From assembly GCF_000258515.1 (NCBI RefSeq), contig NZ_AJLF01000002.1:62001-126000 (forward strand): a stretch of 64,000 bases of DNA. The letters run 5' to 3'. This DNA is from Thermococcus zilligii AN1 (GTDB lineage Archaea; Methanobacteriota_B; Thermococci; Thermococcales; Thermococcaceae). Shown here one piece after another: positions 5,661 to 52,003 of this stretch; the first letter of the stretch is position 1; every line of letters begins with the position of its first letter. The notes beneath the pieces are model-generated. The model saw only the letters and a list, made by a program, of their open reading frames with translations, was not told the origin of the DNA and ran no database searches. Both the position numbers and the translations under genes were made by a program.

Positions 5661-6347
5661 ATGTCCTTCGAGAAATACTACGAGGCGTTCAGGGCATACA
5701 GCGACATTTACTCGGACGAGTACAGGAGGAGGATTGAGACGCTCGAGCCCCTTCTGATGAAGCACATGCCCTCAAGGGGGAAGGTTTTGGACCTCGCCTG
5801 CGGGGCCGGCGGCTTCTCCTTTCTCCTCGAGGATCTCGGCTTTCAGGTCATTGGCCTGGACTCAAGCGAGGCCATGCTCGAGAGGGCCAGGAAGTTCGCC
5901 GCGGATAAGGGCTCAAAGGTCGAGTTCGTTAAAGGTGACGCCAAAGAGCTTCCATTTGAGAACAACAGCTTCGACTACGTGCTCTTCATAGACAGTCTTG
6001 TCCACTTCGAACCGCGGGAGCTGAACCAGGTTTTCAAAGAGGTCGCGCGGGTTCTAAAGCCGGGCGGAAGGTTTATACTCCAGTTCACAGACCTCAGGGG
6101 ACTCCTGCCGGTCTTAATTAACGGAACCGTCGTTGGGGCCGAGTACTGGATCAGCAGGGTCTTGACGGACGAAGAGGAGAAGACGGTTCTGATAGAGTTC
6201 CAGAGCGAGAAGGAGAGCTTCAGGGTGCGCTTCAACGTCTGGGGGAAAACGGCCGTTGAGATGCTCGCAAAGCTCTACTTCGGGCAGATCCACAGCGAGA
6301 ACCTCAACGAGCATACCTATTTCCAGGTCTACGTGCCGAAAAAATAA
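5661..6347 (+). CDS. Class I SAM-dependent methyltransferase, substrate unknown
   Basis: A 228-residue soluble methyltransferase of the UbiE/type-11 kind. Motif I is VLDLACGAGGFSFLL (about residues 41-55), followed by an acidic LDSS at the end of strand 2 and an EVARVLKPGGRFIL post-motif region. The C-terminal half is specific and may bind substrate, which cannot be named. AAAATATTTAAAC at 5628-5640 is a good TATA box about 26 bases upstream of the ATG. It stands alone and converges on lysS. Confidence 0.85.
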   Translation: MSFEKYYEAFRAYSDIYSDEYRRRIETLEPLLMKHMPSRGKVLDLACGAGGFSFLLEDLGFQVIGLDSSEAMLERARKFAADKGSKVEFVKGDAKELPFENNSFDYVLFIDSLVHFEPRELNQVFKEVARVLKPGGRFILQFTDLRGLLPVLINGTVVGAEYWISRVLTDEEEKTVLIEFQSEKESFRVRFNVWGKTAVEMLAKLYFGQIHSENLNEHTYFQVYVPKK

Positions 6348-32163: not shown

Positions 32164-32316
32164 TTTGCACTGTCCTCTTCGGTGCAGCCTGAAAAGGCTA
32201 TCAAACCCAGCGGAGAGCGCGCTCTTTGCAGAGGGCGTCGGTATCTGTTTGGGGTTCCGGGCCGTGGCAAAGGCTAAATACCTGAACCCCCATAGCCTTA
32301 AGGGAGGGTGGCAGTT

Positions 32317-35121
32317 ATGTCGGAGGAAGTCAAGGAAGTTAAAATCCTCGAAAAGCCCTGGGTTGAGAAGTACCGCCCCGAGAGACTCGAGGATATAGTC
32401 GGTCAGGCTCACATCGTTAAAAGGCTCAAGCACTACGCCAAAACCGGTTCGATGCCGCACCTGCTCTTTGCCGGGCCGCCCGGCGTGGGGAAAACGAGTG
32501 CAGCCCTGGCCCTTGCGAGGGAGCTCTTCGGCGAAAACTGGCGCCACAACTTCCTGGAGCTTAATGCGAGCGATGAGCGCGGCATAAACGTCATCCGCGA
32601 GAAGGTGAAGGAATTTGCGAGGACGAAGCCGATAGGAGGGGCGAGCTTCAAGATAATCTTCCTTGATGAAGCCGATGCATTAACGCAAGACGCCCAGCAG
32701 GCCCTGAGAAGGACAATGGAGATGTTCTCGAACAACGTAAGATTTATCCTCAGCTGCGTCACGGGGGACACTAAGATATACACGCCCGACGAGAGGGAAG
32801 TCAGGATAAGGGAATTCATGAGCCACTTCGAGAACGGGCTGGTTAAGGAGGTCAGCAACAGGCTCGGCAGGGACACCGTAATCGCGGCGGTCTCCTTCAA
32901 CTCAAAGATAGTCGGCCACCCGGTTTACAGGCTGACCCTCGAGAGCGGGAGGATAATAGAGGCAACCGGCGACCACATGTTCCTCACTCCGGAGGGCTGG
33001 AGGCAGACCTACGACATCAAAGAGGGCTCCGAAGTCCTCGTGAGGCCGACCCTTGAGGGAACCCCCTACGAACCCGACCCAAGGCCGATAATAAACCTCC
33101 GGGAGTTCTACAGCTTCCTCGAAGAGATCGAGAAGGAGCACGGCCTCAAACCCCTCGGTGAGGCAAGAACCTTCAGGGAGCTCGTAACAAGGGACAAGGA
33201 GAAAATCCTGAGGAGGGCCCTTGAGCTTAAAGCCGAGATGGAGAACGGTCTCACCAGGAGGGAAGCTGGGATACTGTCACTCCTCGAAGGGGGCTGGACA
33301 CCGAGGACAGAGCTGCAGGAGAAAGCCGGGATTTCACGTGTCAGGCTCAACCAGATCCTCCGGAACCTTGAGAGGAAGGGCTACATCGAGAGGAAGGTCG
33401 AAGGCAAAAAACAGCTCGTCAGGAAGCTCCGCGACGGGAGGGCGGTCAGGAACGCGATGGATGTCAGGCGCATCCTCGAGGAGGAATTCGGGATAAAGAT
33501 AAGCTACAGGACGGTTAAGAAGCTTCTCTCCGGCCAGGTTGACGGAATCGCCTACGGGATTCTCAGGGAAGTCAGGGAGAAGTGGCTGGTGAGGTATGAC
33601 GACGAGAAGGCTGGAATCCTCGCGAGGGTTCTCGGCTTCGCCCTCGGCGATGGGCACCTCGCCAAAACCGGGGTCAGGGTCCGGTTCAACTCAACCAGGG
33701 AAGAGCTTGAGATGCTCGCAGAAGACCTCAGAAGGCTCGGCCTGAAGCCATCGGAGATAATAGAGCGCGAGTCAAGCTCAGAAACCCACGGAAGGAGGGT
33801 CGAGGGAAGGATTCACATGCTCTACGTTGACAGCGTTGCCTTCCACGCACTGCTCCGCTTCTGGGGGGTCGAGGCCGGCAACAGGACGAAAAAAGGCTAT
33901 GCCGTTCCGGAGTGGATTAAGGAGGGCAACCTCTTCGTTAAGAGGGAGTTCCTGCGCGGTCTCTTCGGTGCCGACGGAACGAAACCGAAGGGAGAGCGCT
34001 ACAGCTTCAACGGTATAAAGCTCGAGATGCGCGCTAAGAGGGAGAGCCTTGAGAGAACCACGGAGTTCTTCAACGACCTCGCCGAACTGCTCAGGGAATT
34101 CGACGTGGATTCCAGAGTAATCGTGTCGCCCGCTGGAGATGGATTCGCGGTTCGCCTGCTCGTCACACCAAAGGATGCCAACTACCTCAACTTCCTTACG
34201 AGGGTCGGCTACGCCTATGCCAAAGATGCCTGCGCGAGGCTCGTTGGGGAGTACATCAGGATAAAGCTCGCCTGCAGGGAGATGATTCTTCCCGAGATAG
34301 CTGAAAAAGCCGTAGAGCTCGCAACAGCCACGAACCCGACCCATGCCGCAAAGGTTCTTGGCGTTAAGAGGGACTTCGTTGTGAACCGGCTCAAGGGCGT
34401 TCCAATCGGCATAACGAGGGACTTCATAACTTTCGAGGAGTTCGTGAGAGAGAGAACCCTAAACGGCTACGTCGTGGAGCGGGTTGTAAAGAAAGAAGAA
34501 CTCGGCTACCTCGACGTATATGACGTCACCTGCGCGAAAGACCACAGCTTCATCTCGAACGGCCTCATCAGCCATAACTGCAACTACTCATCAAAGATCA
34601 TCGAGCCGATACAGAGCAGGTGCGCCATCTTCCGCTTCAGACCGCTGAACGACGACGCCATAGCGGAGCGCATTAAATACATAGCCGAAAACGAAGGCCT
34701 TGAGCTGACCGAGGAGGGGCTTCAGGCGATACTCTACGTCGCAGAAGGCGACCTGAGGAGGGCCATAAACGTCCTCCAAGCTGCCGCCGCCCTCGACACG
34801 AAGATAACCGACGAGAACGTCTTCCTCGTTGCAAGCAGGGCCAGGCCAGAGGATATACGTGAGATGATGGAGCTCGCCTTAGAAGGCAACTTCCTCAAGG
34901 CGAGGGACAAGCTGAGGGAGATCCTCCTGAAGCAGGGCCTCAGCGGGGAGGATGTCCTCATCCAGATGCACAGGGAGGTGTTCAACCTGCCGATCCCGGA
35001 GGACAAAAAGGTCGCCCTGGCCGATAAAATAGGCGAGTACAACTTCAGACTCGTCGAAGGGGCCAACGAGATGATACAGCTCGAGGCCCTGCTCGCTCAG
35101 TTCACCATAATGGGCAAGTGA
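32317..35121 (+). CDS. rfcS: Replication factor C small subunit with intein
   Basis: Clamp-loader small subunit that opens PCNA on primed DNA. The 934-residue precursor is an extein of 326 residues split by a 608-residue intein. The N-extein (146 residues) has [12 protein letters not shown], Walker [10 protein letters not shown] and Walker [11 protein letters not shown]; it ends RFILS. The C-extein begins [15 protein letters not shown], the SRC arginine-finger region. GGGAGGGTGGCAGTT precedes the ATG at 32317; the GTG at 32308 was rejected. TATA-like GGCTAAATACC lies at 32270-32280. The stop overlaps the rfcL start. Confidence 0.96.
32755..34578 (+). mobile_element. RFC intein with LAGLIDADG homing endonuclease
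   Basis: Self-splicing protein element of 608 residues inserted before the cysteine of CNYSSK. It starts [11 protein letters not shown] (block A), has [14 protein letters not shown] (block B), and ends with block [16 protein letters not shown] followed by extein Cys, so all splicing residues (Cys1, block B His, terminal His-Asn, Cys+1) are present. The endonuclease motifs are [10 protein letters not shown] and LRGLFGADG, each with an acidic residue. Between the splicing half and the endonuclease lies an extra region of about 110 residues resembling one or two helix-turn-helix units. It looks functional for splicing and homing. Confidence 0.95.
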
Positions 35122-50605: not shown

Positions 50606-51019
50606 TCACTCTCCAATAACCTGCACTACAACCCTTCTGTGCCTCGGCCTGACGTCCAGCTCGACGAAGAATACCTGCTGCTAGGTTCCCCTCACCAGGC
50701 GGCCGTCAACGACCGGGAAGCACTCGCTTGCCCCTAAGATGGTGGCACGAAGATGGCTGTGGGCGTTGTCATCTACCCCATCGTGGAGGTAGCCTTTTCC
50801 CGCAGGAACAAGCTCCCTCAGGGCCCTCTTAAAGTCCTCCAGGAGGCCGGGCTCGTGCTCTATCGTCACCACCGCGCCCGTTGCCCCGGGCACGAATACA
50901 AGAACCTGCCCGTTTTCTATTCCGCTCTCCTCAACGGCCCTCTCGACCTCTCCCGTTATGTCAACGAGGTCAATCTCGCCCCCCGTTGAGAAGCGAAGCT
51001 CCCTCGTGAAGACCCTCAT
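50606..51019 (-). pseudogene. yjbQ: YjbQ/UPF0047 family gene interrupted by an in-frame TAG
   Basis: The YjbQ (UPF0047) family has been assigned secondary thiamine-phosphate synthase activity. From ATG 51019 the frame reads MRVFTRELRFSTGGEIDLVD and reaches the family motif NAHSHLRATILG, then DGRLVRGT and a TAG at 50681-50683. Beyond the stop the same frame continues QQVFFVELDVRPRHRRVVVQ to TGA at 50606-50608, exactly the family's usual end, where the motif is GTWQQ. A single TGG-to-TAG change therefore truncates 137 codons to 112. It may be a pseudogene, a sequencing error or a readthrough case. The start overlaps the regulator gene by 50 bases. Confidence 0.85.
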
Positions 51020-51917
51020 TACCCCCACCCCCAAGAACCTGCAGGAGGCGTCCAACCTTATCAACTACTTCAAAGGGATCCCTGCCGAAGATATAGACCA
51101 CGGGCTCAACACCGTGGCCGCCTTCGTCGATAACGGCATCGTACAGGTCAGCCGAGAAGGGGCTGGCTATCTCTTTCACGGCTTCCCTTTCCTCAAGTCC
51201 GGCAGTGCTCATCCTGGCGAGCTTAAATCCAAGGAGCTGTAGGGCCCTCTCAACGTCGTCACCGTAGCGGATGTTGAGGACGCTCCTGACCTCGGGCCTT
51301 AATTTCCCGACCCAGACAAGGATGCCCGCCGTAAACCGGCTTGCCCCGAATTCTGGAGGCAGAGCGTAGGGTTTCCCCTTCGCAAGGGTTATCCTACCTG
51401 GAACTGCCGCAACATCCTCCGGGCCAGAAGGCGACTGCGCAGAGTAAGCGAAGTTGCTCCTAACCTCGGGGATTAGCCCGCCAAAATCCTGGAGGGAGGT
51501 TAAGCGTCTCAAAGCGAGCGAAAGCTTCTCCAGCACTTCCCCCTTTCCGGAGGTAGAATATATCGTGTGGCAGGCCTCCTCGCTGATCCCCGCGTACTCG
51601 GCGTAAAACCTGCAGAGAAATCCGCTCTGGAAGAGCTCAACCAACCGCCTGGAAACGAGAACTGTAGCCCCTTCCCTGGTGCCCCCGTAGAGGATGAACC
51701 TCCCGGCTTCCTCGGCTATCTCGTCTATCCTGCTGGCAAGCTCATCCGGCAGTCTCTTGTACCTGCCAGAGAGGTATTTACTCACCATCGTCTGGGTAAC
51801 CCCGAGGTAGTCAGCGATCTCAGCCTGCCTGAGGTTCCCCCTGTAAAGAACCTCGGCAATCTTCGCCCGCAGGTAGGGCATTATTACCTCAGCGAGATAA
51901 ACCGCTGGAGTCCTCAT
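50970..51917 (-). CDS. thiR: ThiR-type transcription regulator (HTH plus ThiN domain)
   Basis: A 315-residue two-domain protein: an N-terminal helix-turn-helix of the XRE-like kind (LRQAEIADYLGVTQTMVSKYLSGRYKRLP, residues about 29-57) and a C-terminal ThiN domain (thiamine-phosphate synthase-like; PEVRSNFAYSAQSPSGPEDVAAVPGRI to the end). ThiN domains bound to HTH domains are known as thiamine regulators, sensing thiamine phosphate. The ATG at 51917 follows GGTGGTGGTT; the longer frame was rejected. It is divergent from pyrB and overlaps the YjbQ relic, which fits a thiamine locus. Whether the ThiN part still has enzyme activity is not visible. Confidence 0.83.
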   Translation of the reverse strand: MRTPAVYLAEVIMPYLRAKIAEVLYRGNLRQAEIADYLGVTQTMVSKYLSGRYKRLPDELASRIDEIAEEAGRFILYGGTREGATVLVSRRLVELFQSGFLCRFYAEYAGISEEACHTIYSTSGKGEVLEKLSLALRRLTSLQDFGGLIPEVRSNFAYSAQSPSGPEDVAAVPGRITLAKGKPYALPPEFGASRFTAGILVWVGKLRPEVRSVLNIRYGDDVERALQLLGFKLARMSTAGLEEREAVKEIASPFSADLYDAVIDEGGHGVEPVVYIFGRDPFEVVDKVGRLLQVLGGGGNEGLHEGASLLNGGRD

Positions 51918-52003
51918 AACCACCACCGGTGGGGTTGCTACCGGGCCGCGGCCTAAATGGATTGTGGTCGCTTTTAACCATAAAAATGTCAAAAAACGTT
52001 TAA

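Follow-up and report, generated by a model that had tools for sequence, protein, structure and literature searches.

yjbQ is interrupted by an in-frame amber codon

In the genome of Thermococcus zilligii AN1 (1.76 Mb, 5 contigs, 99.91% complete), a gene of the YjbQ/UPF0047 family, yjbQ, lies on the minus strand at positions 50606-51019 of the window, which is the 64,000-nucleotide stretch of contig 2 (62001-126000) analysed here. The gene is preceded on the same strand by an HTH-ThiN gene (Table 1). The initial annotation had placed a TAG exactly where the family carries the Trp of its GTWQ motif, with the proper C-terminus following in frame up to a TGA, and both statements proved correct.

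Table 1. Features of the yjbQ locus (positions are those of the window)
Feature	Position	Strand	Remarks
yjbQ part 5' of the amber codon	50684..51019	-	112 residues from ATG 51019-51017; C-terminal end ...GRLVRGT
In-frame TAG, codon 113	50681..50683	-	TGG (Trp) in 40 other genes compared
24 in-frame sense codons past TAG and natural TGA (50608-50606)	50606..50680	-	QQVFFVELDVRPRHRRVVVQVIGE; last two modelled beta strands
HTH-ThiN gene, upstream of yjbQ, presumably ThiR-like	50970..51917	-	Pfam ThiN 145 bits, HTH_3 25 bits

The part before the stop exceeds the curated cut-offs of the family without help from the tail, scoring 90.3 bits against Pfam UPF0047 (cut-off 27) and 83.8 bits against TIGR00149_YjbQ (cut-off 67.75). 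Treating the TAG as a residue raises the scores to 126 and 121 bits, respectively, and makes the match to the family (PF01894, TIGR00149) full-length. In contrast to the family, the T. zilligii frame is interrupted at codon 113, and the encoded product lacks the last 25 residues; it covers the Pfam profile only to position 95 of 117 and does not form a complete YjbQ domain with its C-terminal strands. By sequence, the closest solved structure is 1vph (SSO2532), found with an E-value of 1.7e-29 when the pre-stop part was used as the query.

The read-through protein, as modelled with AlphaFold (pLDDT 96.6), has two beta strands right after the stop, at residues 114-120 and 127-136. Since truncation removes these last two strands, loss of function appears likely from the model. 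Among the 16 invariant columns of the alignment, 12 lie before the stop, including H79, N85 and H89, and truncation removes the invariant residues W113, Q114, D122 and R128.

The family is annotated as "secondary thiamine-phosphate synthase enzyme YjbQ", and the HTH-ThiN neighbour, which we take to be ThiR-like, appears in line with this thiamine annotation. We infer an ATG start at 51917 for this neighbour, while the ORF caller started it at 51992 (TTG). All 41 loci, T. zilligii included, carry a homologue of it upstream of yjbQ and on the same strand; these homologues reach yjbQ or leave a spacer of about 20-290 bases, apart from one locus with 437 bases, the match of which ends early. The HTH-ThiN frame of T. 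zilligii extends 50 bases into yjbQ. The corresponding frame reaches yjbQ in 16 relatives, and in 14 of these its stop either overlaps the start of yjbQ or is no more than 7 bases away. The overlap was considered as a second lesion and dropped, because the other two of these relatives have overlaps of 25 bases (L044) and 59 bases (L045) with an intact yjbQ.

Codon 113 is TGG in the relatives

Codon 113 is TGG in all 40 other genes compared, which come from the genus and its close kin, and TAG only in T. zilligii. This comparison omitted 8 of the 48 loci L003-L050, namely the duplicates L032-L035, L037 and L038 as well as L047 and L048; all 48, copies included, have TGG at this codon. A wider alignment of 28 rows has Trp at position 113 in the 27 rows other than T. 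zilligii. These rows were drawn from 39 loci, and the 12 omitted loci comprise five distant bacterial ones with a non-Trp residue at this position (L065, L066, L068, L069 and L070; 30-37% identical), two that are cut or out of frame (L051 and L058) and five that have Trp. On these alignments, Trp 113 is nearly, though not strictly, universal.

An orthologue of yjbQ is present in 59 of the 61 genus genomes, and T. zilligii is the only one of the 59 with an internal stop. The frame is thus disrupted in one genome and intact in its relatives, as in a nonsense pseudogene, and the in-frame TAG that decoding would be expected to conserve among relatives is absent from the 40 genes compared.

A stop that falls exactly on a conserved Trp mimics recoding, and caution is warranted, yet TGG is one transition from a stop. 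It can become one through two different transitions; the only other codons of yjbQ that one transition can turn into a stop are the four Gln codons 38, 114, 115 and 133. Therefore, a hit on Trp 113 is among a small number of likely outcomes.

No dedicated decoding of TAG was found

Pyrrolysine use had been judged unlikely in this lineage, and our searches agree. PylS had no match in the T. zilligii genome; the control search gave a match in 13 of 14 named genomes and exceeded the cut-off in one. None of the 44 tRNA hits above cut-off carries the anticodon CUA as typed by ARAGORN, a typing that could miss an intron-bearing CUA tRNA. The tRNA-Trp gene was itself absent from the 44 hits, and a pattern search recovered a single intron-containing gene with the anticodon loop CTCCAGA, the anticodon of which is CCA by eye; ARAGORN made no call on this gene with introns allowed. 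The lack of PylS and of a detected CUA tRNA argues against decoding of the TAG as pyrrolysine or by a suppressor. Moreover, TAG ends 8 of the 62 long non-overlapping ORFs in the window (mechanical ORFs, with the broken yjbQ possibly among them), which is weak evidence that TAG serves as an ordinary stop.

With its in-frame TAG and the conserved tail behind it, yjbQ resembles the pyrrolysine-decoded TAG genes of archaea such as the Methanomassiliicoccales (PMC4153887). Unlike those systems, T. zilligii combines the absence of PylS and of a detectable CUA tRNA with the absence of TAG from the 40 other genes compared. In the available portions of the literature on YjbQ/UPF0047, archaeal readthrough, pyrrolysine, ThiR, Thermococcus pseudogenes and tRNA-Trp introns, we noticed nothing directly on this gene.

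Constraint on the T. zilligii branch appears modestly weakened

A codon model with codon 113 masked gave an omega of 0.175 for the T. zilligii yjbQ branch vs 0.055 for the background (2dlnL 7.1, p = 0.008). The model comprised 39 genes, with L046 and L049 left out of 41, and six branches were tried. The yjbQ branch ranks third of the 39 terminal branches, behind L015 (omega 0.32, p = 0.002) and L023 (p = 0.09), which is very short and uninformative, while L010 (p = 0.003) and L018 (p = 0.047) have an omega below background. Because L015, L010 and L018 also depart, the test evidently varies among intact genes as well. Relative to the best omega, values near 0.08 and near 0.4 each cost about 1.9 units of likelihood, and omega = 1 costs 6.7 units. 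An omega of 1 over the whole branch thus fits much worse, which indicates that constraint held over most of the branch; if the excess stems solely from neutral evolution that followed the stop, the neutral phase would span roughly an eighth of the branch.

Assignment of amino-acid changes with an outgroup pointed in the same direction as the codon model. Over 121 codons of yjbQ, 11 changes fell on the branch of T. zilligii and 1 on that of G036, the genome with the best match by yjbQ. The corresponding numbers for 43 other matched frames are 477 and 327, from which the yjbQ ratio differs (Fisher p = 0.034), although the same numbers show a generally somewhat higher rate of amino-acid change in the T. 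zilligii lineage. G052 served as the outgroup for yjbQ, and either G052 or G008 for the other frames. Ranked by changes per codon, yjbQ comes first of 35 frames, which are the 44 minus nine in the rRNA region, and it is still first when these nine are added. The changes at genus-conserved sites include K73A, R81G and I82V.

Two other measures gave no such signal. Counts at strictly invariant sites showed nothing special, with one such site changed in T. zilligii yjbQ (I82V) vs five in L049 and two each in L005 and L046. Similarly, the pairwise dN/dS against G036 is 0.132, which ranks 21 of 51 frames (median 0.115); relaxed selection is not visible in this measure and appears only with branch-assigned changes. 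The 24 codons past the stop differ from those of G036 by 4 synonymous and 3 non-synonymous changes, a level of conservation that would be expected were the full-length protein still made. These comparisons are suggestive, not proof, of a modestly weakened constraint on T. zilligii yjbQ.

An intact paralogue is present

A second yjbQ, with 51% identity and an intact frame, is located at another place in the T. zilligii genome, and a match to this paralogue was found in 57 of the 61 genus genomes searched. In the draft genome G043 (99% complete, 40 contigs), the paralogue was found and the orthologue was not, and in G037 (90% complete, 150 contigs) neither was matched; drafts such as these do not prove loss.

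The paralogue of another genome, G001, also contains an in-frame TAG (G001:C1:1515163-1515546, GTWQRILFI*LDGP; locus L071), the only case among the 57 genomes with a paralogue match. This site is GAG or GAA (Glu) in all 21 other paralogues compared, the two closest included, and the G001 orthologue of yjbQ is free of internal stops. Since the G001 TAG stands at a different codon and arose via a different change, it gives no hint of a shared recoding signal. By sequence, it would fit an occasional loss of one of the two paralogues.

Mid-gene stops are rare in the surrounding assembly

The quality of the assembly was assessed by a stop scan of about 204 kb of T. zilligii against 271 kb of G036. 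The scan gave 193 non-overlapping matches of G036 frames, of which ten have a stop inside their middle stretch, and only two of these, apart from yjbQ, lie in genes that Pfam matches. One is a DUF4350 gene, in which a TAA lies 5' of the likely start. The other is a methyltransferase gene on the plus strand (window 5661-6347), the end of which comes 16 residues earlier than in G036 and after the Pfam domains. The seven remaining frames have no Pfam match and were taken for non-coding or antisense. Within the ~204 kb, yjbQ is the only recognisable gene that we saw interrupted by a stop in its middle; partial matches, which include a DNA polymerase II large subunit gene and an exosortase-like gene near a stretch end, lie outside the frameshift check. 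Poor assembly or a substitution error at the TAG is therefore unlikely.

Evaluation of the possible explanations

We consider it probable that yjbQ of T. zilligii carries a real and recent nonsense mutation which inactivates this copy in the presence of an intact paralogue. One transition in the coding strand, from G to A, would have converted the TGG of GTWQ to TAG. Translation would then end after 112 residues, yielding a product without the last two beta strands, and the loss of yjbQ may be tolerated because the second, intact paralogue is present and presumably covers its function. This scenario takes the truncated YjbQ to be inactive and the assembled base to be correct. Recent single-nonsense pseudogenes are a class found in prokaryotes, and T. 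zilligii yjbQ shares with them one stop in an otherwise intact frame, an intact paralogue and, apparently, a modestly relaxed terminal branch; we noticed no notable difference from them. The initial annotation had left the choice between a very recent loss, a sequencing error and readthrough, and it is the loss that is favoured by the modestly raised omega, the intact paralogue and the existence of a near-complete draft genome (G043) that yielded the paralogue alone.

A sequencing or assembly error in an intact gene comes second after the recent nonsense mutation, and we regard it as unlikely. The TAG is a single substitution seen in one genome only, its tail is intact and the pairwise dN/dS is ordinary, all of which speaks for an error. 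However, the scan for mid-stretch stops against G036 turned up no second recognisable gene with such a defect, and the raised omega is independent of codon 113. A stable 112-residue protein with a changed or regulatory role is considerably less probable still: most of the invariant columns, with H79, N85 and H89 among them, are retained in the truncated product, yet it loses two strands and four invariant residues, the constraint on the gene appears modestly weakened, and no other genus orthologue (59 of 61 genomes have one) contains an internal stop. Readthrough of the TAG by a near-cognate or unrecognised tRNA, with some full-length YjbQ being made, seems very improbable. The downstream frame is intact and conserved, and the TAG is directly followed by CAG CAG, a context that resembles leaky stop contexts known from some viruses. 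Several results speak against readthrough: neither the 44 tRNA hits nor the tRNA-Trp showed the anticodon CUA, PylS is lacking, the constraint on the branch appears modestly relaxed and the 58 other genus orthologues are free of internal stops. The more specific proposal that a near-cognate tRNA reads TAG at a useful rate without a dedicated suppressor, with the TAG of the G001 paralogue as a second case, is the one to which we give the least credence.

As a probable recent loss, the yjbQ stop would offer a natural test, on a small scale, of whether both YjbQ paralogues are needed in Thermococcus. Were readthrough demonstrated, the gene would represent an unusual example of an amber codon that is naturally read through in an archaeon lacking pyrrolysine.

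Intein-like insertions on the same contig

Intein-like insertions were seen in two other genes of contig 2. To the left of the window, a gene at L127:7379-11008, which we take to encode the MCM helicase, contains an intein-like insert where G036 has none. Within the window, a 937-residue ORF at 32308-35121 aligns in two blocks with a G036 protein of 329 residues, and an insert of about 600 residues separates the blocks; this ORF presumably encodes the replication factor C small subunit, interrupted by an intein.
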